47,060 nucleotides of DNA from Pseudofrankia coriaricola. Its GTDB lineage: Bacteria > Actinomycetota > Actinomycetes > Frankiales > Frankiaceae. The DNA lies in assembly GCF_001854805.1 (NCBI RefSeq), contig NZ_MBLO01000046.1, forward strand, positions 1-47,060, read 5' to 3'. Positions 10,273-42,635 of the stretch are shown here, in pieces; position 1 is the stretch's first letter, and every line of letters begins with the position of its first letter. The notes under the pieces were generated by a model. It saw nothing but the letters and a program-made list of their open reading frames with translations, ran no database searches and was not told the DNA's origin. Position numbers and translations under genes: made by a program.

Positions 10273-10839
10273 TTACGCCGACATCCCGCCGCCGGGAGCC
10301 GCCACCACCAGCGGCTTCCGACCCAAGGTCGGCATAACCCCGAGGTTGGCATAAGAGGCCTTATGCCGACGTCGGCATAAGACCTCGCTCATGGTGCCCT
10401 TCAACCCGAGCAGCAGCCGGTCGTTGTACTCATCCGGATCGTAGACCCCGTCGGTGTCGGCCAGCAGGACTCCCGCCAGCGAGCACAGCTCGACCAGCTG
10501 GTGCCAGTCACGTCCAGCGCGGGCCAGCCGCGACATCTCCAGCCCCACCACCAGGCCCACATGCCCCATGCTGATCTCGGTAACCAGGCGGGCGAACCCC
10601 GGCCGCTCGACCACCCCGGCCGCCGAACGCCCCAGATCCTCGTCGATCACCAGCACCCGCGACGACGACCACCCCAGCGCCACCGCCCGCTCGACCAGCC
10701 CGTACTGCAACCGGGTCGACTCGCCGTGATCGAGCACCTGCTGACGGGAGGACTGGCGCACATACACCACCGCCAGGCGATCCCGATGCCGGCCCTGGAC
10801 CTTCCCGATCTCACGCTCACACAGCAGCATCGACGTCAC
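10273..10839 (-). pseudogene. Large serine recombinase, truncated N-terminal domain
   Basis: The resolvase-type catalytic domain is clear: VVYVRQSSRQQVLDHGES with the Ser nucleophile, LVIDEDLGRSAAG, ERPGFARLV and GLEMSRLARAGRDWHQLVELC. Homology stops after LKGTMSE near 10390, where the RIT end begins; the rest to the stop is read through RIT terminal repeats. Full-length relatives are several hundred residues longer with DNA-binding and zinc domains, so this is a remnant. It starts inside a small upstream gene, the usual arrangement for this recombinase type. Confidence 0.82.
10327..10384. repeat. GGCATAA repeats with a 20-bp palindrome at the RIT right end
   Basis: TTATGCCGACGTCGGCATAA at 10361-10380 is a perfect palindrome. 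GGTTGGCATAAG (10344-10355) and GGTCGGCATAACC (10327-10339) are direct copies of the same half-site. Related half-sites occur at the left end of the composite. This looks like the recombinase-binding end of a RIT element. Confidence 0.75.
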
Positions 10840-14387: not shown

Positions 14388-16622
14388 TTAAGGACCGTTC
14401 GCGGTCCCGCTTACCGCCTGCAGATACTGACTTCGTACGGCGGCAAGCGTAGCCTTGGTACGTTCGACGGTCCAGAAGGTCCATCCGCTCCCAACCTCGT
14501 TGCCGGTGGCCCTGTTGGCTGCGGGGGTGGGTGTCGTGAATATCTCGCCCGACTCGATTCGGATCCGTCCGTCTTGCAACCACGTCGCCCGGTGCGCGAG
14601 TCCGTTGCGCCGTCCGATTAGGCGCTCGTCGGGTCGAATCATTCCCTCTCGGGCAATGTCTGCGAGGGTCGTCGTATGACGGGTCCGCGCCTTGTAGACG
14701 CCAATGCTCGCGCCGTTTTTGGTGTGGCCGGAGGGCTCCCTACTGGCAGGCATCGTTAGCCCAAGCTCCTCAGGGGACCACACCAGTTCGGCGATCGCCT
14801 GGTAGAGCCGGCCGCGGCTTTCAATGAAAGGACCGATCGGCTCTCCGGGTTGATAGGGCTGGAATTTGTCCGTCAGGTTGTGCTGAGCGACGAATTGGCG
14901 AAATACACGAGTACCCCTGCCCTTGACAGCATTCGGATGAAGCGAGGCTGCAAGCGAGTTTGACCTCTGATATGGGAGAAGTTTGTCCTCTAGGCGCAGG
15001 CCGCCGAGGCTGGCATTGTCAGCGCCATTTATCAGCACGAGGCCGCCGAGCATTCCCCGCTTCAACTGGATCTCCTCGTCCGGAGTCGCCTGGTCCGGGT
15101 AAACCCCCAGCTTCTTGGTAAAGAGGTGCTCAACCTCGAAGCGCCGTCGGTCTGCCTGAGCGGTGAGTAGCCGCTGCGCCTGTTCACCGCCGCCAACTCC
15201 TCTTTCCAGCCACGCAGTCAGCCGGGCGAGAAAATATAGAACGAATGCCCGGTTAGATCCTTCGCGGTAGCGCGCTTCCCGTACGTGCGAAAAATGCGGA
15301 TACCAGTCGGCCGCCGCCCTGCCGAGTACCCCACTTAGGTCGTCCTCAGTGCGAGACTCGCGCACTGCCGGCAGCAGGGCCGCCACGAGTTCGTGGACTT
15401 CGTCCCGGTTGTAGGGCAGGTCCCTCAGGCCCCGGGTAACTACAAACAGGTCGATGAAGTTGGCAACCAGCCTGGCTTTGCGCCACGTGGTCCCCTCTGA
15501 GTCTTCCGGTTGGAGGGCTGCGAGCGTGAGGTCGAACTGCCGCGGCATGTCGTTGTGACTGTTGAACCACACCGCCTCCAGCCCACCTTGGAGCTGGTCG
15601 ACTGCTCTTAGCAGCGTCGCGTAACGTCCGTGCAGAGGCTCAAGCCACTCGGTGAATAGTGCAGCCTGTTTTCCCCTTCTTTTGCTTGGCCAGATTGCGT
15701 TGGCGTGCGCGTGAAGCCATTCGTGCGGGGAATCCTCCTTAGCATGGTCGGATTCCGCCGAACGGTCGATATCAAAATAGCGAGCGCGAATTACTGTGCG
15801 AATGTAGTTTAGTGGCGCCTCTGAATCCGCCTGCAGCGAATTGACCATGCTCTGCCATCGCTGGTCGAGCTGTTCGGGGTCTTCATGGGCGTCGGTGAGC
15901 AGATAGTTTTTTAGATGGTCAAGCGGACCAAGATGACGCCCGCGATCATTCATCGCATTGAACATCTCCTTGCCCCGAACCGCGTCACCGGCATCGAGCT
16001 CAACAAACGAAACCCGGTCGAGCAGCCACCGCGCGAAATGCAGGAGAGCGTCTTGCCGAAGTTCCTCCGGCCAGCGAGCGAGAAGATGCGTTGATGCGCT
16101 CTGCACTCGCCGCAGGTCGGGAGAAGCGCCGTCCTCGCTGACCGGTCTACCGTCCAGAAGCTGGCCAAAATATGTCTCGTAGGGGCCAACGCGGACCGCA
16201 AACCGCCGGTCGCTCCGGTCGCCGCCGCGCACTAGCATACGTAGTTGCGCGTTTAGGCCTCTAGCCTCTTCCCGATGAACTGTTCTCCTGTTCAATATGA
16301 TCAACATCAGAAGAAGAGTTATGACCCGTTGTTGGCCGTCGGCCAGGTATGTTGCGCCATCCTTTTGGTAGGTGATGATGCAGCCCATGAAGTAGGGATC
16401 GTAATTCTCGACATCGTCCACGGTGTGCGCGAGGTCCCATTGCGGCTGGAACTTGGCCGTCAGGTCGTCAATGATTTTCTCCAGCTGCGGACGCTCCCAG
16501 ACGTAGCCACGCTGAAAGAAATCGAGATGATAGGATTTCCCGTTAAAAAGGTCGCGAACCGAAAGTTCCCGAGCTGAAACGAGAGGCTTCGCGGACCGTG
16601 GGGCTTGCACGATGCTCCTCAC
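14388..16622 (-). CDS. GmrSD-type DUF262/DUF1524 protein with C-terminal RAMA-like domain (744 aa)
   Basis: Residues about 18-260 are a DUF262 (GmrS/ParB-like nuclease) domain: FQRGYVWERPQLEKIIDDL (36-54), YFMGCIITY, the hallmark DGQQR (95-99) and FNAMNDRGRHLGPLDHLK (221-238). Residues 490-565 fit DUF1524 (GmrD, HNH-like): FEVEHLFTKKL with H499, then GMLGGLVLINGADNASLGG. The C-terminus (about 645-735) matches the RAMA pattern: TLADIAREGMIRPDERLIG, AHRATWLQDGRIRIESGEIF and GSGWTFWTVER. GmrSD enzymes cut modified DNA with NTP hydrolysis, and RAMA is predicted to sense modified bases, so a single-chain type IV restriction protein is likely. It follows an unknown gene by about 107 bp on the same strand. 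Start is GTG; GTG 12 nt downstream is an alternative. Confidence 0.85.
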   Translation of the reverse strand: MRSIVQAPRSAKPLVSARELSVRDLFNGKSYHLDFFQRGYVWERPQLEKIIDDLTAKFQPQWDLAHTVDDVENYDPYFMGCIITYQKDGATYLADGQQRVITLLLMLIILNRRTVHREEARGLNAQLRMLVRGGDRSDRRFAVRVGPYETYFGQLLDGRPVSEDGASPDLRRVQSASTHLLARWPEELRQDALLHFARWLLDRVSFVELDAGDAVRGKEMFNAMNDRGRHLGPLDHLKNYLLTDAHEDPEQLDQRWQSMVNSLQADSEAPLNYIRTVIRARYFDIDRSAESDHAKEDSPHEWLHAHANAIWPSKRRGKQAALFTEWLEPLHGRYATLLRAVDQLQGGLEAVWFNSHNDMPRQFDLTLAALQPEDSEGTTWRKARLVANFIDLFVVTRGLRDLPYNRDEVHELVAALLPAVRESRTEDDLSGVLGRAAADWYPHFSHVREARYREGSNRAFVLYFLARLTAWLERGVGGGEQAQRLLTAQADRRRFEVEHLFTKKLGVYPDQATPDEEIQLKRGMLGGLVLINGADNASLGGLRLEDKLLPYQRSNSLAASLHPNAVKGRGTRVFRQFVAQHNLTDKFQPYQPGEPIGPFIESRGRLYQAIAELVWSPEELGLTMPASREPSGHTKNGASIGVYKARTRHTTTLADIAREGMIRPDERLIGRRNGLAHRATWLQDGRIRIESGEIFTTPTPAANRATGNEVGSGWTFWTVERTKATLAAVRSQYLQAVSGTANGP

Positions 16623-18637: not shown

Positions 18638-18789
18638 ATGTGTGCCGGACGTAGAGCGGTGACCCCCGCAAGATTCGGGGTTGCGGTAGCCGTGAAGTCT
18701 GGCTTCTCCGCCCACCGGACGACGCTGGGCGTCGGCCCGCAGGTGGGCTGGCGACTGAGGCCCCCCGGTGGAACCAGGCGCGGTCTGTG

Positions 18790-19947
18790 TCAATGCGACG
18801 TGTTCGTAGGAACACCGCTGGCGTGGTGGTGGCCCGTGATGAGTCGGGCGATGGCGTATCTGAGGTTGTTCTCGGCGATGTCCGCGGAGGTCTTCAGGTC
18901 GGCGAGGAGTCCGAGCGGGAGGGTATCGCGGGCCTGGCCGGCTTCGGCGGCGATGTGAGTCAGGCAGTCCAGCTCGTCGACGGTCAGGTGAGGCCGCAGG
19001 TAGGGATCGTTGAGAGCCATCGCAACGGCGCGGCCGTCGGAGTGACAACGCGCGTCCTGGACAAGCCGGGTGGCGACGGCCCTGACGGCGGGGCCTCTGG
19101 GAGCGAGGGCAAGGAGGCTGAGGCCGAGGCGAGTGCGGAAGACGACGTGGGCGCGGTCGGTGCCGAGCGTGAGGTAGGCGCTTGTGGCCGCGGCGGACGC
19201 GGCCTCGGATGGCAGGTTGCCCGTCCGCAGGCATAGGAGGCGCAGGACGGCGGCGACGGCTTTCTCCCACGGATCCTGAGTGAGGCTGGCGTCGAGGTGG
19301 CCAAGGGCTTCGCGGTAGTTGCGGGTGGCGCAGTGAGCGAGGATGAGGACCTGGCGGCCGTCGAGGAGGCGCTGGCCGATGCCGTTGTGCCGGCGGACGT
19401 GGTCGAGGGCATCTGCCCAGCGGCCTGCCTGGGTCAGGGCGCGGGTGCCGTCGGCGAGTAGCACGGTCCAGAGGAACCGTTCGGCGGTGCGCAACGCGTC
19501 GTGGCCGTCGGAGAGTTCGGCAAAGTCGACGTCGGTCTGCTCGATGCTGACGGTGCCGCGGGTCCGGGCTGCGTCGTAGAGCCCGGTAAAGATTGCATAG
19601 GCCCGGGCGGTGTCTCCGGCGCGGGTGGCGAGGCGACCGAGGTTGACCAGCGGTTGTAGCGCTGCTTTCAGGAGGACTGGCGGCAGCGGTGCGGCATCGA
19701 CGAACACCTGGAGTTGGCGTCGGCACAGGTCTGCGGCGAGGCTCGCCATGCTGTGGTCGCTGGCGAGGAGCGCTGCCTTGTTCAATGCCTCGGCGGTGGG
19801 CAACCCCGCGCCCTCAATGGGCTGGGGCGCTCGGGCGAGCCGGTGGATCTCTGCGAGGCGGGCTGTGAGGCTTCCGGCCGGCGGGCGTGAGCGGGGTACG
19901 AGCGGGAACCAGTCGACAATCGGCCGCGGAAGGTCCCGGCTGGTCAT
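18790..19947 (-). CDS. Hypothetical helical-repeat protein, last gene of the FxLD operon (385 aa)
   Basis: The ATG overlaps the stop of the preceding SpaB_C-type gene (ATGA), so it is translationally coupled to the lanthipeptide biosynthesis genes. The protein is almost wholly helical with repeating 30-40-residue units: LNKAALLASDHSMASLAADL, LVNLGRLATRAGDTARAYAIF, FLWTVLLADGTRALTQAGRW and ATRNYREALGHLDASL are TPR-like helix pairs. No catalytic motif and no signal peptide. TPR scaffolds often hold enzyme complexes or sense peptides, so a scaffold or regulatory role in peptide maturation is a reasonable guess. I cannot assign a named family. Confidence 0.75.
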   Translation of the reverse strand: MTSRDLPRPIVDWFPLVPRSRPPAGSLTARLAEIHRLARAPQPIEGAGLPTAEALNKAALLASDHSMASLAADLCRRQLQVFVDAAPLPPVLLKAALQPLVNLGRLATRAGDTARAYAIFTGLYDAARTRGTVSIEQTDVDFAELSDGHDALRTAERFLWTVLLADGTRALTQAGRWADALDHVRRHNGIGQRLLDGRQVLILAHCATRNYREALGHLDASLTQDPWEKAVAAVLRLLCLRTGNLPSEAASAAATSAYLTLGTDRAHVVFRTRLGLSLLALAPRGPAVRAVATRLVQDARCHSDGRAVAMALNDPYLRPHLTVDELDCLTHIAAEAGQARDTLPLGLLADLKTSADIAENNLRYAIARLITGHHHASGVPTNTSH

Positions 19948-20810
19948 GTGAGGATCACGTTCGCGGCGGTGTGGGCGAGCAGGGCCTGGGTCGGGTAGGG
20001 CAGGCCGAGGCGATTCCAGTGGAAGAGGACGTGGTGGGCGAGGACGGCGCGTAGGCCGCGTTGCAGGTTGCCGTCGTGGGCGAGGCGGTAGAGGTTCCGG
20101 CCGGTGTCGGTGAACGCTCCGGCCCAGCCGGTGAACGAGGCCAGCGGCCCAGCTGCGCTGGTCAGGGGTGTTCCGGGGCTGGTGTCGGTCGTGAGGAGTC
20201 GGTGTAGCCGGGATTCGAGCCTGCGGGCGGCGCCTGTGGCGGCGGGTGGGTTGGGCCTGGTCGCGGCGACGCGTGCCCAGATGTCGCCTTGTTCGTACCA
20301 GTCCTGGCCGGCGGCGCGCATCAGTGCGCAGCAGAGCAGGACTGACAGTTCGCGGCGCAGGTCGGTATGGCTGGTGAGCGTGGCGAGGTGCGCGAGGACG
20401 TGGCGGCTGTCGTGGTGGAAGAGCCGGTGGGCGAGGTTCATGGCGGCCGGACCGCCGAACGCGTGGGTTTCGGGTTCGTAGATCGTCTCGGTCCAGGCGG
20501 CGAGATGGCCGTCGTCGCGCAGCGCGTCGAGCCGAGCGAATACGGCGGCCGCCGCGCCGGGGCCTGCGGGGCTGGCAACATCTGTGGCCGGTTGGATCCG
20601 CAGTCGCCAGCAGGGCGCCTTGCGGATGAACCACCAGGACGTGAGGAGGCCGTCGTCCTCGGCTTCGGTCATGGCCTGTATCAGCTGGGTGGCGATGGTG
20701 TCGGCTGCGTCGTAGTGGGCGAACCGGAGGGTCGCCTGGTGCCACGTTGGACGGGTTGGTTGCGGGGTGGTGGGTTCGGCGGTGGCGAGCCGAGTTGGGC
20801 TGGTGGTCAT
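19944..20810 (-). CDS. Thiopeptide-type bacteriocin biosynthesis protein (stand-alone SpaB_C-like, 288 aa)
   Basis: The N-terminal part reads WHQATLRFAHYDAADTIATQL followed by TSWWFIRKAPCWRLRI, the typical start of SpaB_C/TIGR03891 proteins. It continues with AWTETIYEPETHAFGGPAAM and FHHDSRH, also conserved in the family. In class I lanthipeptide and thiopeptide systems this fold is the elimination domain that turns glutamylated Ser/Thr into dehydro residues, or in thiopeptides forms the pyridine ring. The neighbouring LanB already has its own C-terminal copy, so this is a second one. It starts 15 bp after the LanC stop and overlaps the next gene. Confidence 0.85.
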   Translation of the reverse strand: MTTSPTRLATAEPTTPQPTRPTWHQATLRFAHYDAADTIATQLIQAMTEAEDDGLLTSWWFIRKAPCWRLRIQPATDVASPAGPGAAAAVFARLDALRDDGHLAAWTETIYEPETHAFGGPAAMNLAHRLFHHDSRHVLAHLATLTSHTDLRRELSVLLCCALMRAAGQDWYEQGDIWARVAATRPNPPAATGAARRLESRLHRLLTTDTSPGTPLTSAAGPLASFTGWAGAFTDTGRNLYRLAHDGNLQRGLRAVLAHHVLFHWNRLGLPYPTQALLAHTAANVILT

Positions 20811-20825: not shown

Positions 20826-22043
20826 TCAGGTCAGCAGGAGTGCGGCGTCCCAGCCGGTGGCGGGGGAGGTGTTGGTGGCGGCGGTGTGCAGGGCGAGGGC
20901 GGCGCCGGCGAGGCCGTCGAGCAGTTCCGGGTCGGCGGCCAGTTGGGTCGGTAGCCGGGCGAGGAGGCGCTCGACGAGACCCGGAAGTTCGGCGGCGAGC
21001 TCCGGAGTCGTGGCGTCGGCGGCGGCGCGGTGGGCGGTCTGGATCAGGCCGGCGAGGCCGTGGCAGAGGCCTGGCTCGGTGAGCAGGTCGAGCTGGTTAG
21101 AGTCGCGTAGGCAGGTGAGCAGCGCGGTCTCGGCGGTGTGCCTGCGGGCGGTGTCGCCGGTCGCGAGTGCGGCGAGCTGGTAGGCACGGGCGATCCCGGG
21201 CAGGCCGTAGCACCAGGACGGGGGCCGCCGGCTGGCGGTCTGGGTCTCGCCTGGCCGGGCCTGCGGCTCGGTGACGATGCCGGGCCACCAGGCGTCTGAA
21301 GGGCTGGCCTGCTGGCATTGGTCAAGCCAGGCGCAGATGCGCTCGATGGCAGCGAGTTGGCCGTCGACTTCGATGTTGTGCAGGACGGCGGTGGCGAGCA
21401 GGGCCAGGGGCGCGGCGATGCCGTGGGACATGCCCGCGTTGCCGTGCCCGGTCGGGTAGTCGGTGGATGGGGCGCCGCTGGGGTCAACGTCGGTCCACCA
21501 ACCGGGCAGCCCGTCCGGCTGCGGTTCGGTGAGCTGGGTGAGGTAGGCGAGGATGTCGACTGTGATCGGGTGGCCGCGGCGTAGGTGGTAGCTGCCGAGT
21601 CCGGCGAGCCCGCGGATCAGGTCGAACTCCGCGAGCGGCGGCCGGCCGGCGGCGCGGAGGCGGGCGTGTGCGGCTGTGAGGCGGCGGCGGGTGATGGCGA
21701 CCGTCGCCGCGTCGAGTGTGGCGAGTGCGTCGCGGAGTTGGCCGGGCCGGTTGACGGCGGTGTGGGTAACGAACGCCAGTGCGGGGGCGCCGAAGTAGAG
21801 GGTGGCGTTGGGGCCGGCGCTGATGGGTTCGGCGGTGGCTTCGCGCAGCCAGGCTTGGGCGGTGGACCAGTCGCCGTGGCCGGTGCGGGCGCGTTCGATG
21901 TGCAGCAGCGCGATGCCCGCCGCGCCGCCGGCGAGCGACTGGCCGCGGCGACGGCCCGGGCCCGGCGGGACGGCGGCGGGGTCCGCGAGCCGGTCAGCAA
22001 TGGCCGCGACCATCGCGAGTGCCCGGGCGCGCACGGCAGTCAC
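20826..22043 (-). CDS. LanC-type lanthionine cyclase (405 aa)
   Basis: Lanthionine synthetase C family. Visible landmarks are SLAGGAAGIALLHIERAR, GNAGMSHGIAAPLALL, WCYGLPGIARAY and GLCHGLAGLIQTAHRA. The Zn ligands of LanC enzymes correspond to the Cys of WCYG (about residue 277) and the Cys and His of LCHG (about 326-327), all present. The enzyme adds Cys thiols across dehydroalanine or dehydrobutyrine to make thioether rings. The GTG start overlaps the LanB stop (GTGA); an in-frame ATG 60 nt upstream lies inside LanB and is less likely. Confidence 0.92.
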   Translation of the reverse strand: MTAVRARALAMVAAIADRLADPAAVPPGPGRRRGQSLAGGAAGIALLHIERARTGHGDWSTAQAWLREATAEPISAGPNATLYFGAPALAFVTHTAVNRPGQLRDALATLDAATVAITRRRLTAAHARLRAAGRPPLAEFDLIRGLAGLGSYHLRRGHPITVDILAYLTQLTEPQPDGLPGWWTDVDPSGAPSTDYPTGHGNAGMSHGIAAPLALLATAVLHNIEVDGQLAAIERICAWLDQCQQASPSDAWWPGIVTEPQARPGETQTASRRPPSWCYGLPGIARAYQLAALATGDTARRHTAETALLTCLRDSNQLDLLTEPGLCHGLAGLIQTAHRAAADATTPELAAELPGLVERLLARLPTQLAADPELLDGLAGAALALHTAATNTSPATGWDAALLLT

Positions 22044-25000
22044 AAGGTCTCCGAACTGCGGCGCGTGAGAGTGAGGGCGACGGCGCGAGCCAGCCGGGCG
22101 CAATCGGTCTCGGCGTCGGGGTCGGGCCCGGTCACGCGGGTCTGGTGCAGGTGAAGAAGGCTGGGCAGTACGTCAAGCGGTGTGGTCCCGTCGGTGGCGG
22201 CGAGCGTGTCCCGGTAGGCGTCGATCGCGGCGCGGCGGCGCGCCCAGGCGTCGGCGACCTGGTCGCCGCGGGGCAGGGACCGCACATTCGGCGGGTCGTC
22301 GGTGCTGGCAAGGCGGATCGCTTCGCCGAGCAGGTCGCGGTTGAGGGTGGGGCCTGGTGTGCGTGGGAGGCGCCTGACGAGCCAGTGCGCCGCGTCGTCG
22401 CGGCTAGGCAGGCAGGCGGCGGTGAGGTCGAGGTAGCTGGAGGCTAGGAGAGCGTGTGGGTGCGCTCCGCCGCGGCCGGTCGCGGCGAGTTGGGCGACGG
22501 CGGCGGCTGAGTCCGCGGCGAACACCGCCTCGGCGGCGGCCATCGCCGCTCCGGCACCGAACCGGCCGGTCTCCGGCAGGTAGGTGTCGAACTGCAGCGT
22601 GGCGAGCAGTCCGAGCCGGCGCAGCCGACGCGCCCACCGGCCGACCGTCGCTGCGGCGTCGCTGAAGGCGTCCGGGTCGGGGAGGCGGAGCCGGAGGCGT
22701 AGGTGGGTTTCGGGGTCGTGGTAGCGCAGGAACCACCACTGGGGCGGTTCCGGCCAGCAGGCGAGCAGTTCGGGCAGGTAACGGGTGAGGATCGCGGTCT
22801 GCCGGTCCGGGTGGGTGTAGAGCTTCGCGTACAGCCAGTCGCCGGCGCCTGGCAGATGGCCGTCCTGCACCCGCGCTGCCCGGCTGGGCGAGACGCGGGG
22901 ACGCCGGATCGCGGGCTGGGTGGTGGCGAGTGGCACGACGATCTCGACGACGCGTCCGTCGCACCAGCCGGCCGTATCCGGCGGCGGCGCCTCCCGCAGC
23001 GTGACCTGTCCGGCCCGGTCCAGGTCGCTCTGCAGCAGGTGAAGGTGGGCGGGTTCGGTCAGGTCGAGGAGTAGCCGCCGGTCGTCCTTGCCGGCGAAGA
23101 CGACGTCCGGGACGCCGAAGCGGTCCCGCCAGGCGGTCAGGCTCGCCGCCCATTCGTCGAAGTCGGCGGCCGGTGGAAGGGCGTCGGTGGGGAGGAGCCA
23201 GCGGGCCGGGGTGAGGATTGTGCGGCCGGGGCGGAGGCTGGGCAGGAACGGCAGCCGGCTGGCCGCGCCCCAGGAGAACGGGGTGCACGCGGCGACCCGT
23301 GCCGTGGCGATCTCACAAAGGAAACGCAGTAGCGGATGCGCCGAGCGGGTGAGCTCGACGGCGTGGAACGCGACCGGCTCGACCGCCACGCCGCGCGCCA
23401 GGGACACCAGCCACAGCCGGTCGGCGTCCCCGGTCACCGCCAGTTCCGCCAGATCGATCAGCCCGTCGCCGGGTGGGTGGTGCTCGCCGAGCGCGATCAG
23501 GTGCGGCAGGACGCGCGGCGCGCGGGCGACGTTCTCGGCCAGCGTCGAGAGCGTCCCGCCGGATACCTGCGCGACGAGCGCGCCGTCGGTCAGCGTCGGC
23601 AGCCGTCGATACGCGATGAGCATCCGTTCGCGGTCGGCGCCGTCGAACATGTCGAGGAACCGGCCGGTTGTGGTCCCGGCCGATCGGGAGACTCCGGCGA
23701 CCGCCAGTCGGAACTCGCCGCGTTCAACCGCGGCCCGGGTCGGGGCGTGCAGCCGGAAGCGCATCTCGGTGTGTGGCTGTACCGCCCCGACGTCGGTGAC
23801 CAGTTGGGCGAGCAGCCGTTCGTCGAGGACGACTTCGCGGCGGCCGGTCGCGGCGGCGGTCTGGGCCAGGCCGAGCAGCAGCTCGTCGCGTGTGGTCAGG
23901 CCCGGCGACCGCGGCGGCGCCAGCCGTGTATCGCGGTATCCGGCGGGGAACCCGAGGCCGGTCTCGGCGTACAGCAGGTCCGTGAGCGGGACGAGGCCGC
24001 CGACGCCGAACCGTTCGACGAAGCGGGCGTGGTAGTCGCGCCATACCGGGCTGCCGGCGGGGTGCGGCGCGAGCCGGGTCAGCAGCGCGGCCGCCCGCTC
24101 CACTTCGCGTGCAACCGCCGCTGGCAGTGCCAGCGCGCACGACGAGCGCAGGTCGACGGCCAACGGCCGCTGTGCGGCGCATACGTCCGCCATGGCTGAG
24201 GCCGTCGCCGCGCGGCGAGCACGCCGGTCGACGGCTGCGAGTGTGGTGCTGGTGGAGGCCAGGCCGCGGTGAAGCCGGCGCAGCTCGTCGTACATCCCGG
24301 CGGCCTCGGCCGCCGTGCCAGCGCCCGCGGTGTCCAGGGCGGCGACGACGTGTCCGAGCGGATCGGTCGCGGTCGCAGCGGGGCGCAGCGCGGAGAGCAG
24401 GAAGCCCTGGTCCAGCAGGTCGCTGACCAGCCTGCTGGCAGCGCCCGCCGGCGCGGCGGGGAACTCAGCCGCCAGCCTGGCGAGCAGATCACCAGCGGGC
24501 ACGGGCATCACCGCCGCCTTGCGGACTGTCTCGACCGCAGGGGTGAGCCGCACAGACACCTCCAGGGCCGAGCCGCGCGGTGCCTCGGCAGCTGGCCGCC
24601 GGCAACCGAGCACGAGCCGCCCGTCGCGTACGAACGCGAGGTTGTTCACGGCGACGAGCAGGCGCGGCAGCAGCTCGCCGCACCGCTCGAGTCGGCGGAT
24701 GACGCCGTCGAGCCAGGCCGCGTCAACCCGGCCGACCTCGTGGGGGTGACCGCTGTCGTCGAAGGTCAGCGCCGGGGCGAAGGTGACGGGTGCGACGCCG
24801 GCGAACAGGCCGAACGGGGTCGCCCGGCTCGCCGCGCGCAGCCGGTAGCGCAGGACCGACACCACCGCACGCCGTACCTGGCGTGCCGGCAGTTCTTCGC
24901 CCGCGTATACCCGCTTGATCTGTCCGGCGAGCGCCGGGCTGGCCAGCTCGACCGCCGCGGCGAACGGCTTGCAGGCCCACATCTGGCACAGCCAGCCACG

Positions 25001-25246
25001 CCAGTGCTCGGCCTGCTCGGCGCCGCCGGCCAGATCCGGCCAGGGGAGGGCGGCCAGCTCAGGCACCAACTCGGCCACCCGGACCATCGCCGCGTCGACG
25101 ACCTCGTACAGGGGGCCGCCCGCGCCAGCCGTCGCGTCGGCGAACCGGCCGCGAGCCGGATTCTCGGCAGCGGCAGCGCTCGGCCGAGGCCCCGCACCGG
25201 TCGCCGGCGGATCGGCTCCAGGCCGTGCGCCGAGGGCGATCTGCAT
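22040..25246 (-). CDS. Class I lantibiotic dehydratase LanB, full length (1068 aa)
   Basis: The N-terminal glutamylation domain carries the family hallmark RYRLRAASRATPFGLFAG (about 133-150). The middle shows VNNLAFVRDGRLVLGC and DELLLGLAQTAAAT; the C-terminal elimination domain (about 785-1060) begins near DWLYAKLYTHPDRQTAIL, with QWWFLRYHDPETHLRLRLR. LanB enzymes use glutamyl-tRNA to activate Ser/Thr of the precursor and then eliminate glutamate. Length is normal for a fused LanB. It lies 97 bp downstream of the precursor gene, behind a hairpin, and is coupled to LanC. The first 45 residues are low-complexity, so a later start is possible. Confidence 0.95.
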   Translation of the reverse strand: MQIALGARPGADPPATGAGPRPSAAAAENPARGRFADATAGAGGPLYEVVDAAMVRVAELVPELAALPWPDLAGGAEQAEHWRGWLCQMWACKPFAAAVELASPALAGQIKRVYAGEELPARQVRRAVVSVLRYRLRAASRATPFGLFAGVAPVTFAPALTFDDSGHPHEVGRVDAAWLDGVIRRLERCGELLPRLLVAVNNLAFVRDGRLVLGCRRPAAEAPRGSALEVSVRLTPAVETVRKAAVMPVPAGDLLARLAAEFPAAPAGAASRLVSDLLDQGFLLSALRPAATATDPLGHVVAALDTAGAGTAAEAAGMYDELRRLHRGLASTSTTLAAVDRRARRAATASAMADVCAAQRPLAVDLRSSCALALPAAVAREVERAAALLTRLAPHPAGSPVWRDYHARFVERFGVGGLVPLTDLLYAETGLGFPAGYRDTRLAPPRSPGLTTRDELLLGLAQTAAATGRREVVLDERLLAQLVTDVGAVQPHTEMRFRLHAPTRAAVERGEFRLAVAGVSRSAGTTTGRFLDMFDGADRERMLIAYRRLPTLTDGALVAQVSGGTLSTLAENVARAPRVLPHLIALGEHHPPGDGLIDLAELAVTGDADRLWLVSLARGVAVEPVAFHAVELTRSAHPLLRFLCEIATARVAACTPFSWGAASRLPFLPSLRPGRTILTPARWLLPTDALPPAADFDEWAASLTAWRDRFGVPDVVFAGKDDRRLLLDLTEPAHLHLLQSDLDRAGQVTLREAPPPDTAGWCDGRVVEIVVPLATTQPAIRRPRVSPSRAARVQDGHLPGAGDWLYAKLYTHPDRQTAILTRYLPELLACWPEPPQWWFLRYHDPETHLRLRLRLPDPDAFSDAAATVGRWARRLRRLGLLATLQFDTYLPETGRFGAGAAMAAAEAVFAADSAAAVAQLAATGRGGAHPHALLASSYLDLTAACLPSRDDAAHWLVRRLPRTPGPTLNRDLLGEAIRLASTDDPPNVRSLPRGDQVADAWARRRAAIDAYRDTLAATDGTTPLDVLPSLLHLHQTRVTGPDPDAETDCARLARAVALTLTRRSSETL

Positions 25247-25342: not shown

Positions 25343-25504
25343 TTACGCGCAGGTGGTGCTGCAGGCGCTCTGGCAGGTGGTGCCGCAGTTGTCGTCGGTC
25401 AGGCGCATCAGCTCGTCGAGGATCGGGCCGGACTCGACGATGCTTACGTCGAGATCGAAATCGGCCTCGACGGTCGGCGCGGCGGCGTTCGCGTGCAGGG
25501 TCAC
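25343..25504 (-). CDS. FxLD-family lanthipeptide precursor (53 aa)
   Basis: The leader holds the FxLD motif as FDLD (residues 16-19) in VEADFDLDVSIVESGP; this family is named for that motif. The core region ends with Cys at 40, 44, 48 and 52, exactly four residues apart, with Thr/Ser at 42, 43, 46, 49, 50 and 51, ready for lanthionine or methyllanthionine rings. The GTG start is fixed by a perfect AAGGAGG at 8 nt spacing; the ATG 30 nt upstream lacks such a site. It sits between the FxLD methyltransferase and LanB genes. The mature product and its ring pattern are not predictable from sequence alone. Confidence 0.93.
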   Translation of the reverse strand: MTLHANAAAPTVEADFDLDVSIVESGPILDELMRLTDDNCGTTCQSACSTTCA

Positions 25505-25550: not shown

Positions 25551-26801
25551 TCAGATCAGAAGATCAGTGGCGGACGGCCAGGACAGGGCCAGCCGCCGGT
25601 GGCGCCGGTCGAGAACGACGGCTCCCGCGGGAAGTACGAAGTCAGGGGTGCCAGCGGGGAAGGCCTCGATGCGTGCGGTGCGGCTCCCGCCGTCCCAGGT
25701 CCGGATCCGGGCGGCCATTCGCTCGGCGAGCGCATCGGCGTCCGGACCGTGCGCGTACACGCCGAACTCGCGCGACTCCTGACCCGGGGACTTCGGACTG
25801 AGCGCGAGGTACGCGAAGCTGCCCTTCCCGACGATCGTGGGAACCCCCAGCGGCCAGGCGTGGCCGACGACGCCACGCTCGACGGCCGCCGGTCGGGCCA
25901 TGAGCAGCCCGAAGTTGTCCAGCCCGGTCGCCAGCCACAGCAGCAGGCCCTCGAACTGCCCGCCTTCCCCGATGCGTGTTCCCGACCAGACCTCGACGCG
26001 CGGCCAGGACACCGCCTGGCGGACCAAGGCCGGGTCGGCGTCCGGCGGGTCCTCAAACCGGATCGCCGCGTCGTCACCGTCGAGGCGGATCACCTGGTCG
26101 AGGTGGGCGCCCGCGCCGCGCACCGGCACGAAGCTGCACAGCTCGTAACCCCGGCTCACCAGCCGGCCGCCATCGGCCTCGAACACCACCGACCGCGTGA
26201 GACCCCGCAGCCGCAGCGGCACGACCAGCCGCCCACGCGGCGCGAGCTGGTCGGTGAACGCGGGCGGGATGTCCCACATCCCCGTGGTCACCAGCACCAG
26301 ATCGAACGGCGCCCGCTCCGGGACACCCGCGTCGGCGTCCGCGAGCACGACACTCACCCGGTCGTAGCCGGCGGCGGCCAGACAGGCGCGCGCCCGGTCG
26401 ACGACCTCCGGATCGATGTCGACCGTCGTCACCGCACCCGACGGCCCGACCAACTCCGCGAGCAACGCCGCGTCGTAGCCCCCACTGCCGACCTCAAGAA
26501 CCCGCATCCCGGGCCGGACCTGGGCCTGCCCCAGCATCATCGCCTGGATGTGCGGCGCGGAGACCGTGCTCACCAGCGACCCGGCCGCGTCCCGCCGCAC
26601 GAGCACCGTGTTCTCCGGTGCGTACGCCGCCTCGAGGCTCGCGCCCGGCGCGAACAGGTGCCGCGGCACCGTCGCGAACGCCCGCGCCACCTCCTCGCCG
26701 CGCACCGCGCCCAGCTCACGCAGCCGCTCGACCATCGCCGCCCGCAGCACGCCGGCTCGGTCGTCCGCGGCGGGGCCGGGTTCCACTCGCGCGTTGCTCA
26801 T
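25551..26801 (-). CDS. FxLD-system methyltransferase, PCMT-like (416 aa)
   Basis: The SAM-binding domain resembles protein-L-isoaspartate O-methyltransferase: ATVPRHLFAPG, the glycine loop VLEVGSGGYDAALLAELVG, acidic VDIDPEVV, and FDLVLVTTGMWDIPP. A C-terminal extension of roughly 180 residues (VGKGSFAYLALSPK, EFGVYAHGPDADALAERMA) is typical of the FxLD-system methyltransferases that accompany FxLD precursors. Related enzymes in class I lanthipeptide pathways methylate an Asp side chain, leading to succinimide and isoaspartate; that activity is inferred here. ATG with GGAAGGGG upstream; first gene of the operon, 46 bp before the precursor. Confidence 0.9.
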   Translation of the reverse strand: MSNARVEPGPAADDRAGVLRAAMVERLRELGAVRGEEVARAFATVPRHLFAPGASLEAAYAPENTVLVRRDAAGSLVSTVSAPHIQAMMLGQAQVRPGMRVLEVGSGGYDAALLAELVGPSGAVTTVDIDPEVVDRARACLAAAGYDRVSVVLADADAGVPERAPFDLVLVTTGMWDIPPAFTDQLAPRGRLVVPLRLRGLTRSVVFEADGGRLVSRGYELCSFVPVRGAGAHLDQVIRLDGDDAAIRFEDPPDADPALVRQAVSWPRVEVWSGTRIGEGGQFEGLLLWLATGLDNFGLLMARPAAVERGVVGHAWPLGVPTIVGKGSFAYLALSPKSPGQESREFGVYAHGPDADALAERMAARIRTWDGGSRTARIEAFPAGTPDFVLPAGAVVLDRRHRRLALSWPSATDLLI

Positions 26802-27015: not shown

Positions 27016-28509
27016 ATGACCGGCGACCGCCCGCGCCGCCACTGTTCCCGCTGTGGCCACCGCCTCGCGGCCGACAACCGAGCGGCGACCTGCAGCGCCT
27101 GCCAGAGCACGGCGACCGGCGGCCGTGGCCACCCGCCCGCCGTCGCGGGCGAGTTCTGGCGGTCCACCGAGATGCGCGAGGCTCTCGCGACCTGGCACAT
27201 GGGCCGCGTGATCTACGCCTACCGCTGCCATCAATGGCACGGCCAGGCCCTGCCGCAGGAGGTCGTCGCGGGCTGGCTCGGGCTCACCCAGGCGCAGCTG
27301 AGCCGCATCGAGAACGGCCGCGCACCGGAAGAGCTCAGCAAGCTGGTCCGTTACAGCCAGATCCTCGGCATCCCCGCCGACCTCCTGTGGTTCGACCGCC
27401 CCGGCGAACCACGCCGCTGGCAATCCGCCGATCCGCCGCCGGTCAGCGGGTCCGATGCGGATATCAGCTGCCGTGTGACCGCAGGCGGGCGGGTAGGCCC
27501 CTATCGGGTTCTTGCCGAGGTGGGAGAGGTGGTCATCGTGGCGGTCGACCGGCGGACGTTCCTGGCGGGCAGCGGTGCGGGGCTCCTCGCCGGCGGGAAA
27601 GCAGTTCCGGTGGAGTCACCAGGCCAGATCTCGCGGCAGGTCGTCGAGCACCTGACCGACCAGATCGACAGCTTCTACGCCGCCGAAGCCGTCCACGGCC
27701 CGCGCGCTGTCATCCCATCTGTCCTCGTCCAACAGGAGCTGACCCGTCAGCTGGCCGGCGCCTCCCGGGGCACGATCCGCCACGACCTGCTGCGCACCAG
27801 CGCCGCCTACACCGGCCTGCTGACCTGGCTGCACCAGGACGCCGGCGACCTCGTCACCGCGGCGCAGTGGGCCAACGAGACCCTGGAGCTGTCCCACCGG
27901 GTCGGCGACGCCCAGCTCATTCGCCACGCCCTGGTGAACAAGGCGATGATCTGCACCGACCAGCGCGACGGAGCGGGAACGCTCGACCTGACCGGCGCGG
28001 CGCTCGCCGACGAGCCCATGCTCTGCGCGAAGGTCCGGATCCAGGCCCTCCAGCAGTCCGCCCACGGCCACGCGCTCAGCGGCGACCGATCCGCGACCGA
28101 AGCCGCCCTCGACCGGGCCGCGTCCCTGCTGCCCCAGGTCGACGACGACTACCCCTGGTACAACGCCTGCCGCCGGACCCCGAACTACCTCGAAGCCCAG
28201 CGCGCCACCTGCTACAACCGCCTCGGCCTCGGAACCGAAGCACGCACACTCTGGCAACAGGTCATTGACGCCCTCCCACCCACCGCCCGCCGCGACACGG
28301 GCGTCTACCAGGCCCGGCTCGCCCTCTCCAGCGCCCAGGCCGGCCAGCCAGACGAGGCCGTACGCGCACTCGACGACGCCGTCACGATCGCCCACGAGAC
28401 CGGCTCAGCCCGGCTGCGCCAAGAACTGGCCGACGTATGGCACCAGCTCACGCCCTGGCACGACACCCAGTCAGGACGCGACGCCAACGCACTGCTCGCG
28501 ACACTGTAG
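27016..28509 (+). CDS. Zn-ribbon, XRE-type HTH, TPR regulator of the FxLD cluster (497 aa)
   Basis: The N-terminus has a four-Cys ribbon (CSRC at 10-13 and CSAC at 26-29). An XRE-type HTH follows (about 60-120): QEVVAGWLGLTQAQLSRIENGR, then LVRYSQILGIPADLLWF. RRTFLAGSGAGLL marks the linker used by many actinobacterial XRE/TPR regulators. The rest (about 210-495) is TPR-like helices, including VQQELTRQLAGASRGT, AAQWANETLELSHRVGDAQL and QARLALSSAQAGQPDEAVRAL. Divergence from the methyltransferase and the domain set argue for control of the cluster, perhaps in response to a peptide or small ligand bound by the TPR part. It shares a transcript with the dehydratase gene 13 bp downstream. Confidence 0.85.
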   Translation: MTGDRPRRHCSRCGHRLAADNRAATCSACQSTATGGRGHPPAVAGEFWRSTEMREALATWHMGRVIYAYRCHQWHGQALPQEVVAGWLGLTQAQLSRIENGRAPEELSKLVRYSQILGIPADLLWFDRPGEPRRWQSADPPPVSGSDADISCRVTAGGRVGPYRVLAEVGEVVIVAVDRRTFLAGSGAGLLAGGKAVPVESPGQISRQVVEHLTDQIDSFYAAEAVHGPRAVIPSVLVQQELTRQLAGASRGTIRHDLLRTSAAYTGLLTWLHQDAGDLVTAAQWANETLELSHRVGDAQLIRHALVNKAMICTDQRDGAGTLDLTGAALADEPMLCAKVRIQALQQSAHGHALSGDRSATEAALDRAASLLPQVDDDYPWYNACRRTPNYLEAQRATCYNRLGLGTEARTLWQQVIDALPPTARRDTGVYQARLALSSAQAGQPDEAVRALDDAVTIAHETGSARLRQELADVWHQLTPWHDTQSGRDANALLATL

Positions 28510-28522
28510 GAGGAGCAAAGAA

Positions 28523-28840
28523 ATGGGACTACGCGCCCCACTGCCGGCCGACGAGGTCACCCACCGACTGGAACAGCTCGACGGCTGGGAGAAAGCTCCC
28601 GACCGCGACGAGATCCACAAGACGTTCCACCTCGACTACTACACCTCCGTCAAAGCCATCAACGACGTCATGACCCCCGCCCAGGAACTCCAGCACCACC
28701 CCGACATCGACCTGCGCTGGGAAACCCTCCACTTCAGCCTCACCACCTACTCCGCCGGCCAGAAGATCACCGAACTCGACTTCCGCCTCGTCGACCGCAT
28801 CGAACAGGTCCTGGCGAAATACACCCCGGCTTCGGAATGA
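28523..28840 (+). CDS. 4a-hydroxytetrahydrobiopterin dehydratase-like protein (105 aa)
   Basis: A compact pterin-4a-carbinolamine dehydratase (PCD/DCoH) fold: start MGLRAPLPADEVTHRLEQLD, HKTFHLDYYTSVKAINDV, the active-site type motif ELQHHPDIDLRWETLHFSL, and ITELDFRLVDRIEQ. The usual enzyme dehydrates 4a-hydroxytetrahydrobiopterin during pterin recycling. No aromatic amino acid hydroxylase is nearby. The ATG has AGGAGG upstream and lies only 13 bp after the regulator stop, so the two are co-transcribed. In other systems PCD proteins moonlight as transcriptional cofactors; a regulatory role here is speculation. Confidence 0.88.
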   Translation: MGLRAPLPADEVTHRLEQLDGWEKAPDRDEIHKTFHLDYYTSVKAINDVMTPAQELQHHPDIDLRWETLHFSLTTYSAGQKITELDFRLVDRIEQVLAKYTPASE

Positions 28841-28971: not shown

Positions 28972-29937
28972 TCAGCTCCCAGCCGGCCACGACTCTGGGC
29001 GTGTCAGCCATTCCGGTAACTGGGTCTCGCTGTCCCCCCATGCGGCGTTGACCTGCTCCTGCGAGAGCCCCACCGCGCGGACGAGGTTCGTGCGGCTCAA
29101 CCGGGTGCCGGTGAGGATGGCTCCGTTCAGCAGGGTGTTAGTGAGGTTCGCGCCGCTCAACCTTGCATTAGTGAGGTTCGCGCCGTCCAGCCAGGCTCCG
29201 GTCAGGTCGGCTCCGCGTAGCCGCGCGTTGGTCAAGTTCGTTCCGCTCAACACGGCGCCGTTCAGATCCGCTCCGCTCAGCCACGCATCGGCCAGGTTCG
29301 CGTCGGTCAGGGTGAGGTGGGCAAGGCTGGCAGGTCCGGCGAGGTCGGTGCCGGTGAGGTCGCAACGCGGAACTTTCTCGCGGACGGGAAGGCGCGCGAG
29401 GACCTGCATCGCGGCACGGATGTCTGCCGCTGGATACGTCGGTGTCGGCGATTCCCCGTCGGTTCCGGCACGCGCGGCAAGCCGCTGGGAGAGCGCGGTG
29501 CTACGTACCCGGATGAAGGCAGAAAGGACCTCGACCACGGTGCGCTGGTCTGGCGGAGAATCTTCGGCGATGCGTTCCAGGGCGTAGATCCCTCCGAGGC
29601 GTACCGTGATGATCTCTGAACCGATCTGGTCCACGGCACGCGTATACAGCTCGCGCACATGGGTGTTCTCGTTCGCCCGCCGAATCTCCGCGTTGGCCTG
29701 CCTGGTCTCGTCCAAGGCAATGAGGCCACCGACGACGGCGATCAGGGCGGCGGACGCGGTGAGCAAACCGGACTGCAGCGCCGCCCGCGCGTCCGCGTCT
29801 CCTGCGTCTGGATACATCTGAGCTGGCAAAAGCCAGATCGCCACGCCCGCGGCGCCGGCTCCGGCACCAGCGATCCCGGCCGCTACCCGAAGGCCCAGCC
29901 GCCCAGCGCGCCGCCGCGCGGCACCGTTCTCCGTCAC
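28972..29937 (-). CDS. Membrane-anchored pentapeptide-repeat protein (321 aa)
   Basis: Two N-terminal membrane segments are visible (LGLRVAAGIAGAGAGAAGVA and LLTASAALIAVVGGLIAL), joined by a short loop. A cytoplasmic helical region follows (NENTHVRELYTRAVDQIGS, VRLGGIYALERIAEDSP). From about residue 190 to 290 there are some 18 to 20 pentapeptide repeats of the A(D/N)Lxx type (LTDANLADAWLSGADLNGAV and onward), which form a right-handed beta helix. This architecture is frequent in actinobacteria; the role is unknown. It is a single-gene unit, convergent with the dehydratase gene. Confidence 0.88.
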   Translation of the reverse strand: MTENGAARRRAGRLGLRVAAGIAGAGAGAAGVAIWLLPAQMYPDAGDADARAALQSGLLTASAALIAVVGGLIALDETRQANAEIRRANENTHVRELYTRAVDQIGSEIITVRLGGIYALERIAEDSPPDQRTVVEVLSAFIRVRSTALSQRLAARAGTDGESPTPTYPAADIRAAMQVLARLPVREKVPRCDLTGTDLAGPASLAHLTLTDANLADAWLSGADLNGAVLSGTNLTNARLRGADLTGAWLDGANLTNARLSGANLTNTLLNGAILTGTRLSRTNLVRAVGLSQEQVNAAWGDSETQLPEWLTRPESWPAGS

Positions 29938-31574: not shown

Positions 31575-34500
31575 GTGATCGCGACGGCGAAGGTGCTGCG
31601 GGTCCGGGCTCGTAATCCCGGCGCGATCGCCGATGCCGCGGTGGCGGTGGTCGCCTATGTGCAGGGCGGGCAACCGGAGAGTCGTGCCGGATTGGCCGGC
31701 TACTACGGCCGGGGCCACGCTCGGGGCCGGGCCCGCGGGTTGGCTGCCGACCTGGTGGGTCTGCGCGGCGACGTGCCGGGCGAGGCGCTGGCCCGGCTGC
31801 TGCGTGGTGAGCATGCCGTGACCGGCCGGCTGTTGCTGGCCCCGGTCGGGAAGGGCTCCGCCGGCCGGGTCTCGCGCGTTGCCGCCGCTGCCGATGACGC
31901 CAGCGGCGGGGCCACAGCTGAACGCACTGCCCACGCGGCTGGTGGTGCCGGCGGGCTCCAGAACGGTGCGGGTCCAGATGAGCCGCGCGACGCGGAGCTG
32001 CTGACGTTGGCGGAGGCGTCGACGATCGTCGGGGTCAGCGCGACCTACCTACGTCGGCTCGCCCGCCGCACGGCCGAAGCTGCTGCCGCACGGGCTCAGG
32101 GCCTCAGCGCCGATCCGAGCAACGAGGCGAACGACGACAAGCAGCACCGGGCGGGAACCGACACGACGGCCACGGCCGGCGCCCGCCGTGCGTCGGCATC
32201 CGGCCGCCGACCGGGAGGGCCACTGAAGGTCGACGAACTCGTCGGGGAACGTGGGGCGGACGGACGTTGGCGGGTACGCCGCGATGAGCTGGACCGTTGG
32301 TCGGCGCAGCGGACGCCGCCGGCGACGGTTCTCGGCTATGACGTGGTGTGCGCGGCGCCGAAGTCGGTGAGCCTGCTGTGGGCGTTCGGGGATGAGGCGC
32401 TGCGCGCGGACGTCGCGGCCGCGCTGAACGCCGCGGTCGACGCGGTCATCGGCTACCTGGAGCGTCACGCGACGTTCGGGATGGTCGGTGGGGTGAACCG
32501 GCAGGCACTCGGCCTGGGGGTCGCCTCCTACCTGCATGACGTCTCCCGCAGTACCGAGGCCCACCTGCACATCCACAACATCATCATCAACGCGGTCGCC
32601 GTACCCACCGAGACCGGCGACCCTGACCGCGCAGGAGCTGCCGGCGGGGAGACGGCCTCGTCCGCCGGCCGGCCGGCGCGGGCGGCCGGATGGGAATGGC
32701 GGGCGATCGACGGGGAGGTGCTGCTCGGCCATGTCAAGACGGCTGGCTATCTCGGTGCCGCGGTCCTGCGCCACGAGCTGTCTGTGCGGCGCGGCGTGCA
32801 GTGGGGACCGGTCCGCAACGGGGTCGCGGAGTTGGCGGCGTTCCCGACCGAACTGTTGGGGGCGTTCTCGACCCGGCACGGCGAGGTGATGGACGAGTTC
32901 GCGCAGCTCGTCGCCGCTGGCTTCGAACCCTCGGGGGCGACGGCGGCCGCGGCCCAACGGGGCTCGCGGGCACCCAAACGGGTCCTCGCCGACGCCGCCG
33001 TGCAGGCACTTCAGGTCGAGCGTCTGACGGCCGCCGGGTGGACCGTCGACCAGGTTCGCGCACTCGCCACGACGACCGAGCATCGCCCGCAACCGCCTGA
33101 CGAGCGGGATCTGGCTGACCTGTTTGATCTGCTCGCAGGCCCGGCCGGGTTGACCGGGCAGGCCACGACGTTCCTGCGCCGCGACGTCGTCCAATGCGTC
33201 GCGGCCTGGGCCGGTGACCGGCTGGACGACGAGGCGGTCGAGCGGCTGGCTGACCGGTTCCTCACTGACCCCAGGGTCGTGGTCCTGCACGCCACGGTCA
33301 CTGGTCCCGGCCACCGGCGCCGCAACAAGCCCGAACCGCTCTACACCGTCGAAGGGCTGCTTCGAGCGGAGGACACCCTGTTCGCCCTGTACCGCCAGGG
33401 CGAGGTCGCCGCCGGCGCGGTTCCCCGCCTGCTCGTCGACCCGGCGATTCTCGGGCGGCACCTGGAAGCCATCACCGCCACAGCCACCGCCACCGCGTCA
33501 CGCGGGCACGGCGTGGACGGCAGCGAGGCCGGTGCGGGCGAGGGCGCGGGTCGGCGCGACGCGCCTGAACTGTCGGCCGAGCAGGTCGAGCTGGTGCGTC
33601 GGCTGCTGGCCAGCCAGGACCTGGTCCGCCCCGCCGTCGGCCCGGCGGGCACAGGCAAGACGGAGGCGATGCGTGCCCTCACCGCGATCCTGCACACCGT
33701 CGGCCGGCGGGTGTTCGCGACCGCGCACGGCGGCCGGCAGGCCGAGGAGCTCGCCGACCGGATCGGAATCCCCGCCCGAGTCGTGGCCAGCTGGCTGACG
33801 CTGCTCGACCACACCGACGACCCGGCCGACGTCTGGCCGCCCGGATCGGTGCTGATCGTCGACGAGGCCACTCAGATCGGCACCCGCGACGCCGAACGGC
33901 TCCTGCGCTACGCCACCCGCACCGGCACAGTCGTCATCCTGCTCGGCGACCCCGCCCAGCTCGGCTCGGTCGCCGCCGGCGGCTGGTTCACCCACCTGGC
34001 CGCCCACACGCCCGACATCCCGGCGCTGGCCACGGTTCACCGCCAGGCCGGGCCGGACCTCGCGCCGGTCCGCGCCGCCCTCGGCGCGCTTCGCGCCGTT
34101 CCTGACCCGGCGACGCGCGCAGCCCTCGGCGTCGTCGGCGCGGACAGCGGCGCGGCGACCCGTGCCGCGCTGCAACGCCTCGCCGTCGACGGCCGGCTGC
34201 ACCTGGCCGACAGCGCCGACGCGCTCCTCGAACGCGCCGTCGACGACTGGTACGCCGAACGCCAACAGCACGCCCGCGCCAACCAGTCCGCCGACAGCGC
34301 GCACACCGGCGCCACCGCCGGCACGGCCACCCTCGGCAGCGTCGCTAGCCGGGCGCGCACCGTCCCGGACACCGTCGACGACATCCGCGCCGACATCGCC
34401 AAAGATCGGGGCACCGACACGGACATCGTCACCAACACCGCCATCGGGCAGCCCGAACTCGACCGGGATCGGCGCGCAGCCGTGAAAGCCACGGGACCGA

Positions 34501-42379: not shown

Positions 42380-42479
42380 ACAGCCACGTCGCGGGGCGTT
42401 GGCGCGGGTGACCGCGGTGCCAGCGCCCCGCGTGCTGTGCGGTGTCCTGCGCGATGCCCGAACCTCGGCGACGTCGGCG

Positions 42480-42511
42480 AGGGTGTCGTCGCGGATGGCC
42501 GCCGTGGTGAC
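42480..42511 (+). repeat. Third, degenerate 12-bp-spaced array
   Basis: AGGGTGTC at 42480, CGGATGGC at 42492 and GTGGTGAC at 42504 keep the 12-bp spacing of the other arrays with several mismatches to GCGATG(A/T)C. It lies 125 bp upstream of the integrase start. Confidence 0.45.
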
Positions 42512-42635
42512 AGCGGCCGGAACGCTGCGCGGTCATGGACCGGTTCATCTTTCCGCCACGGCCATTTGCCGAGGATTTTCACGCCCTCCCCAGTACCTGG
42601 TGCGCCCGCGGGCGGCTTTCTGCGAGCGCCGGCCG

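Follow-up and report, generated by a model that had tools for sequence, protein, structure and literature searches.

A probable coi/olv-type lanthipeptide operon of Pseudofrankia coriaricola whose FxLD precursor carries a fourth, C-terminal cysteine

The window analysed here, a stretch of 47,060 nucleotides from Pseudofrankia coriaricola that is one whole contig, contains a six-gene minus-strand operon for, in order, a PIMT-like O-methyltransferase (LanS(A)), a precursor peptide (LanA), a dehydratase (LanB), a cyclase (LanC), a stand-alone glutamyl lyase and a TPR-like protein (Table 1). By homology to the coi and olv clusters, a product of their type with an isoAsp is very likely, and we consider it probable that the operon makes a class I lanthipeptide of this (lanthimiditide) kind by the full scheme proposed below. 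The family, its enzymes and its chemistry are already on record, and in class I lanthipeptide clusters PIMT homologues are the commonest auxiliary enzyme (PMC13001092); the cluster described here is a further member, and the discovery is modest. A possible novelty, within a widespread and recognised family, is a fourth ring at the C-terminus in place of the extra N-terminal ring of OlvA.

Table 1 Position and strand of the operon genes, the predicted core and neighbouring features of the window
Feature	Position	Strand	Remarks
Integrase	4650..5468		
Adjacent tyrosine recombinase ORFs	5560..10200	-	4 of 5 scanned, all match PF00589
Resolvase	10273..10839		
GmrSD-type restriction protein with RAMA domain	14388..16622	-	near the operon
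TPR-like protein	18790..19947	-	385 aa; TPR matches under curated cut-offs
Stand-alone glutamyl lyase	19944..20810	-	288 aa; TIGR03891 210 bits, PF14028 106 bits
LanC cyclase	20826..22043	-	PF05147 130 bits; WCYG and CHG motifs in translation
LanB, full-length dehydratase	22040..25246	-	1068 aa; PF04738 675 bits, PF14028 152 bits
LanA precursor	25343..25504	-	53 aa; FDLD leader; core TDDNCGTTCQSACSTTCA
Core segment Thr36-Ala53	25346..25399	-	predicted rings T36-C40, T43-C48, C44-T51 and, least certain among them, S46-C52
LanS(A), PIMT-like O-methyltransferase of FxLD system	25551..26801	-	416 aa; first gene of the operon
HTH-containing regulator-like protein	27016..28509	+	divergent from the operon; matches to HTH and TPR families under the curated cut-offs
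Pterin-4a-carbinolamine dehydratase-like ORF	28265..28840	+	
Pentapeptide-repeat protein	28972..29937	-	beside the operon
TrwC relaxase with helicase domain	31575..36533	+	1652 aa
Integrase	42282..44339		

The operon and its relation to known clusters

Translation of the minus strand over the LanA interval gives VTLHANAAAPTVEADFDLDVSIVESGPILDELMRLTDDNCGTTCQSACSTTCA*, in which, counting the GTG start as residue 1, the cysteines stand at 40, 44, 48 and 52 and the gaps between them read GTT, QSA and STT, each with Ser or Thr, as the sequence-only reading of this DNA had reported; the plus strand of the interval holds an unrelated reading frame. That reading had left out the strand, and also Thr36 and Asp38-Asn39, which belong to the known, conserved first ring of the TxDGC type, here written TDDNC. 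TxDGC is the core motif of most such peptides (PMC10787088), and a form with Asn following the Asp has been recorded (PMC13001092). A Shine-Dalgarno sequence, AAGGAGG, lies upstream of the GTG. Against TIGR04363, 'FxLD family lanthipeptide' (curated cut-off 30), the peptide scores 66 bits (E 2.1e-18), and because relatives occur in Streptosporangiaceae, Thermomonosporaceae, Streptomycetaceae, Pseudonocardiaceae and Frankiaceae the match is not a chance one; with PF04738, PF14028 and PF05147 proteins as neighbours, its earlier naming as an FxLD lanthipeptide precursor is upheld, and the class is I. SCIFF membership was considered and rejected (21.5 bits against a cut-off of 50; 22.7 against 27). 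Ahead of Cys40 LanA has no extra cysteine of the olv type, and its core lacks a further core motif written in the text of PMC7268733.

Separate LanB and LanC genes beside a precursor with Cys, Ser and Thr define a class I lanthipeptide cluster, and the PIMT homologue together with the conserved Asp of TDDNC places it among the LanS(A)-modified lanthipeptides (lanthimiditides). LanS(A) matches TIGR04364 at 557 bits (cut-off 320) and PCMT PF01135 at 137 bits. LanC probably starts at a GTG at 22043, overlapping the LanB stop; the meaning of its two motifs is taken from PMC3091789. The ATG of the TPR-like gene overlaps the lyase stop, and many related clusters likewise have a gene of this kind after the lyase. 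Another ORF in this region (18563-19726) was dropped, as it has no family match and overlaps the TPR-like gene in other frame with an Arg/Pro-rich translation. No protease or transporter is encoded among the six operon genes, and the coi and olv clusters are also described without a protease (PMC9486935). The earlier description of the cluster as complete and intact holds for the six genes as to length, family match and the residues checked.

The window proteins were searched against 23 named relative loci, in 16 of which (L045-L054, L056-L060 and L064) the full order methyltransferase-A-B-C-lyase-TPR recurs. Among the other seven, L055 and L062 gave no TPR match, L061, a 20-kb locus, gave no methyltransferase match, and L063 has LanB matches scattered over several frames; L065 and L066 carry methyltransferase-lyase fusions after LanC, and L067 has both genes, unfused, after LanC. 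When the outer window genes at 27016, 28972, 30060 and 31575 were compared with the 23 loci, only 27016 was matched among the matches listed (28 bits, L063), and we therefore take the conserved unit to run from 26801 to 18790.

According to PMC9486935, the Tyr of anti lyases is replaced by Lys in syn lyases, which also carry a hydrophobic residue at the position of NisB Arg826, and the catalytic His and Arg are present in CoiB only and absent from CoiSA. We read these residues off a MAFFT alignment with a three-column gap set beside the lyase Lys, matching the Lys column to Tyr because the same Arg precedes both and because of the CoiSA K46/R51/R53 spacing. The stand-alone lyase of the window is syn-type, with Lys64, Arg69 and Arg71 at the CoiSA spacing, Ala in the NisB Arg826 column and no His in the LanB His column, which we would equate with the catalytic His. 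Across this lyase and those of 22 relatives, Lys is present in 23/23 and Ala or Val stands at the Arg column in 23/23, again with no His in the LanB-His column. The C-terminal lyase domain of the window LanB is anti-type and keeps Tyr, Arg and His; including 20 relatives, Arg and His are found in 21/21 and Tyr in 20/21 (Phe in L065).

A full LanB with an extra syn-type lyase is the two-lyase arrangement of the coi cluster of Streptomyces coelicolor A3(2) (CoiA1, CoiB, CoiC, CoiSA and CoiH), which also shares with the window LanC, a PIMT-like methyltransferase, an FxLD-type precursor and Thr/Cys positions fitting its three published rings. CoiSA, however, is a methyltransferase-lyase fusion, whereas the window has two genes set apart, methyltransferase first, and CoiA1 has three MeLan rings where the window peptide carries a fourth, C-terminal Cys. 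The olv cluster of Streptomyces olivaceus NRRL B-3009 (OlvA) shares LanA, LanB, LanC, an OlvSA-type methyltransferase and the first-ring Asp; as described in PMC9486935 its extra ring is N-terminal and it has no second lyase, whereas the extra Cys of the window peptide is C-terminal. For SapT, the active-site Lys of the SptBb lyase has been linked to (E)-Dhb and D-allo-L-MeLan (PMC9890492, PMC9011353), but the spt LanB is split and the genes named there, SptA, SptBa, SptBb and SptC, include no methyltransferase. Families I 1-I 4 of Walker et al. 2020 (PMC7268733) are, like the window cluster, actinobacterial and class I with a conserved Asp and a PF01135 methyltransferase. Walker et al. also noted extra elimination-domain proteins beside a full LanB (PMC7268733), and stand-alone syn lyases beside full-length dehydratases are already on record in PMC9486935. 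Dmxorosin, compared by its description in PMC11855644, is a four-Cys class I peptide but has a split LanB, and its dehydrated residues at core positions 2, 6, 10 and 16 are spaced unlike those of the window peptide.

A 2010 survey already described clusters of Frankia and Streptomyces that combine O-methyltransferases with a DGCG motif (PMC3091789). That FxLD products are largely uncharacterised, as had been supposed, is partly outdated: both OlvA and CoiA1 have been obtained by heterologous expression and mapped, and the supposition stands in so far as PMC9486935 reports no native product as detected for the coi and olv types and leaves the function open. A search of solved structures returned two irrelevant BurrH protein chains (E 0.65 and 0.68), OlvA (6PQF) not being among the matches listed.

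Cysteine spacing and ring residues across the family

The survey covered 240 loci with 251 precursor matches; after omission of L240, which has no anchor motif, 250 matches gave 184 distinct cores, anchored on [TS]x[DEGNK]xC, a motif that in part imposes the first-ring pattern. The sample, which for the families of G145 and G064 took in, from the matches listed, the loci given and 40 and 20 further stretches, favours high scores, so that class fractions are not population frequencies. It left out some matches of the class sample, including weak ones and ones with internal stops (G269:C24 and one of G251), and some records are double, a named contig and a second genome record giving identical tree rows.

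Gap patterns among distinct cores were 4-4 (44), 4-5 (31), 4-4-4 (24), 4-7 (23), 4-4-3 (21), 10 (14), 4-4-5 (9), 8 (8) and 4-3 (6), with one core each for 4-4-6, 4-5-5, 11 and 7-4-5. Of the 184 cores, 160 have a first gap of 4 and 99 begin 4-4, so the spacing is not random; the family backbone is CxxxC, often extended to CxxxCxxxC. The randomly spaced homologues that would speak against the sequence-only reading were thus not what we found. The four-residue period that it proposed is conserved for the three-Cys register and not for the exact fourth step, where the 55 cores with 4-4 and a further C-terminal Cys have a last gap of 4 (24), 3 (21), 5 (9) or 6 (1). In a methyltransferase tree of 90 rows (a quick tree, with SH-aLRT support only), 54 fourth-Cys rows fall in one group (SH-aLRT 90), which also holds L063, and within these rows the last gap needs at least seven changes. 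A strict four-residue period as a conserved trait is therefore rejected, and the repeated change supplies a natural series in which to test how far LanC tolerates different ring sizes. The 4-4-4 precursors L090, L092, L105 and L108, divergent and on short loci, are absent from this tree.

Of the 54 cores with the 4-5 and 4-7 patterns, 41 have an extra Cys at most four residues ahead of the first-ring Thr, as have 23 of the 44 with 4-4 but only 1 of the 55 with a C-terminal fourth Cys, so that N-terminal and C-terminal extra cysteines hardly co-occur. On loci of at least 3 kb, a methyltransferase lies directly upstream of 55/57 precursors of the C-terminal fourth-Cys class, 1/24 of the 4-4 class and 27/27 of the 4-5/4-7 class, the last count meaning that this arrangement is not peculiar to a C-terminal fourth Cys. 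The exceptions are L061 and L025, with a fourth Cys and none upstream, and L063, with three Cys and one upstream; L025 also has neither S46 nor T51. In L260, which has a fourth Cys, the methyltransferase is downstream and no lyase was found. Six precursors (L085, L104, L066, L067, L121 and L123) have two core cysteines only, the second at the very C-terminus (TDDGCDTVRGSNC type).

Thr stands at C1-4 in 181/184 cores and Asp at C1-2 in 176/184, counts that express a preference within the letters T/S and D/E/G/N/K already demanded by the anchor. Ser or Thr immediately precedes C2 in all 99 cores starting 4-4. Three-Cys relatives have Ser or Thr at C3+2 in 38/44, fitting the CoiA1 numbering T43/C47/T50/C51/C55/T57; in 4-4-4 cores it is found at C3+3 (position 51) in 23/24 against 13/24 at C3+2 (position 50), which points to T51 rather than T50 as acceptor. 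At C3-2, the S46 column, Ser or Thr occurs in 54/55 fourth-Cys against 34/44 three-Cys cores (Fisher p 0.002, kinship ignored); the residues seen in this column of three-Cys cores are S, K, N, G and E. Directly before the fourth Cys, Ser or Thr is present in 50 of 55 cores against 38.9 expected at a random gap place (p 5e-05) and in 22 of the 27 distinct gap strings (p 0.006), both p values ignoring kinship.

The idea that the fourth Cys needs the lyase was rejected: L252-L254, stretches of 15.0 to 15.5 kb carrying the 4-4-4 precursors L090, L105 and L092, contain no stand-alone lyase that we could find, so the two are not obligately linked. Nor is the lyase peculiar to a C-terminal fourth Cys, since it is present in 7/7 long-stretch 4-5 or 4-7 clusters of other genomes (L245-L251) and in L241 of the window's own genome. 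It is also present in 8/8 of the 4-4-3 loci viewed in long stretches; in 4-4-3 cores the C-terminal acceptor is Ser in 20/21, and syn elimination on Ser would leave no E/Z trace. In each of L252, L253 and L254, Ser rather than Thr precedes the fourth Cys. In OlvA, whose cluster likewise has no second lyase, the comparable ring is a Lan and not a MeLan (PMC9486935). A Thr acceptor is possibly linked to the syn lyase, on small numbers and with 4-4-3 clusters that have the lyase mostly using Ser.

The predicted product and the partner of the fourth cysteine

CoiA1 has rings T43-C47 and T50-C55, with C51 added backwards onto Dhb57 (PMC9486935). Transferred by the published residue numbers, this pattern likely corresponds in LanA to T36-C40, T43-C48 and C44 with T50 or T51. 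Combining it with column conservation in the 184 cores, we rather favour the rings T36-C40, T43-C48 and C44-T51 for the core segment. Once these are placed, Cys52 is left over and Ser46 is the other well kept hydroxyl residue; their pairing is a tentative assignment, somewhat short of an even case, and S46 may instead be structural, being common (34/44) in three-Cys relatives without a fourth Cys.

In the proposed scheme, LanB, guided by the FDLD leader, would glutamylate Thr36, Thr43, Thr51 and Ser46, and the glutamate would be removed by the LanB lyase domain and by the stand-alone syn-type lyase, which would probably act at the C-terminal Thr51 to give (E)-Dhb. LanC would close T36-C40, T43-C48 and C44-T51, the last with the Cys before its acceptor, and S46-C52 would be the likeliest further closure. 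LanS(A) would then methylate Asp38 within the first ring, which would enclose Asp38-Asn39, and the ester would pass through an aspartimide to mostly isoAsp. With OlvSA, methylation of the equivalent Asp follows cyclisation and never precedes it, and the end product is 70-80% isoAsp (PMC13001092), and LanS(A) and the TDDNC motif fit Asp methylation of this type. The leader would be cut by an unlinked protease, and the peptide would leave by an unlinked route.

For the clade holding this peptide, a fourth thioether ring placed C-terminally, in contrast to the N-terminal one of OlvA, with T43-C48, C44-T51 and S46-C52 crossing beside the isoAsp ring, is a conjecture to which we give appreciable but minor weight; such a product would be compact and interlaced, one bridge probably being D-allo-L-MeLan. 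In the parts of the openly licensed literature covered we found no account of such a C-terminal four-Cys product, a weak negative, and the exact core strings did not turn up in openly licensed papers. The clade poses a clean question: whether the C-terminal Cys closes onto Ser46, and whether the stereochemistry of the last ring is set by the stand-alone syn lyase. As to function, a signalling or surface (morphogen-like) role appears somewhat likelier than that of a potent antibiotic, because none of the operon genes resembles one for immunity or transport. Against the remark on transport counts the 2010 survey, which names an ABC-transporter gene next to one Frankia cluster (PMC3091789).

The alternative that survives best, though we regard it as rather unlikely, is a three-ring, CoiA1-like product with Ser46 left as serine and Cys52 either free, oxidised or removed. 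The Ser at column 46 is kept in those 34 of 44 three-Cys relatives with no partner Cys following, and the N-terminal Ser of CoiA1, ringed in OlvA, escapes dehydration (PMC9486935). Yet the near-constant Ser or Thr in this column of fourth-Cys cores includes Thr in 14 of 55, a residue found there in none of the 44 three-Cys cores, and retention of the fourth Cys through the at least seven changes of the last gap would be odd for an idle residue. Unlikely, too, and more so, is that the cluster is silent or is a mobile-element passenger without a working product in this strain. The contig has a TrwC relaxase, several tyrosine recombinases and a transposase, and a Streptomyces class I lanthipeptide cluster was silent in its native strain (PMC11855644), but the six genes are open, of expected length and with the checked key residues kept. 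The close relative L006 differs at 4 of 38 aligned codons, two of them synonymously, which is too few to prove selection. The sequence-only reading had set a row of small rings against the nested rings of nisin, a contrast that is off, given that nisin rings D and E overlap. Such a row, with each Cys joined to a Ser or Thr of its own four-residue gap, is improbable: every gap has Ser or Thr and T36-C40 would itself be such a small ring, but the best-kept hydroxyl of 4-4-4 cores adjoins the following Cys (gap 1, 24/24; gap 3, 23/24), where it would be badly placed to ring with that Cys, and the homologous CoiA1 rings overlap (PMC9486935), pointing to one small and two overlapping larger rings.

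Distribution and genomic setting

FxLD precursor matches were found in 58/393 genomes of the class sample, in 127/341 genomes of the family of G145, in 135/394 of the family of G064 and in 8/8 genomes of the window's genus, its own genome included. That genome has five matches, four of them above the cut-off. Its FxLD loci L241-L244 have core patterns 4-5, 4-4, 4-3 and 11 and differ in gene order, so one strain may make several distinct products. The methyltransferase of L035 (G332, in the window's family) is identical to that of Parafrankia sp. EUN1f (L051).

The relaxase, recombinases and transposase on the contig suggest a conjugative or integrative element as the carrier of the lanthipeptide operon; the search of plasmid records gave no match. 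The row of adjacent recombinase ORFs (Table 1) resembles an array of the recombinase-in-trio type.
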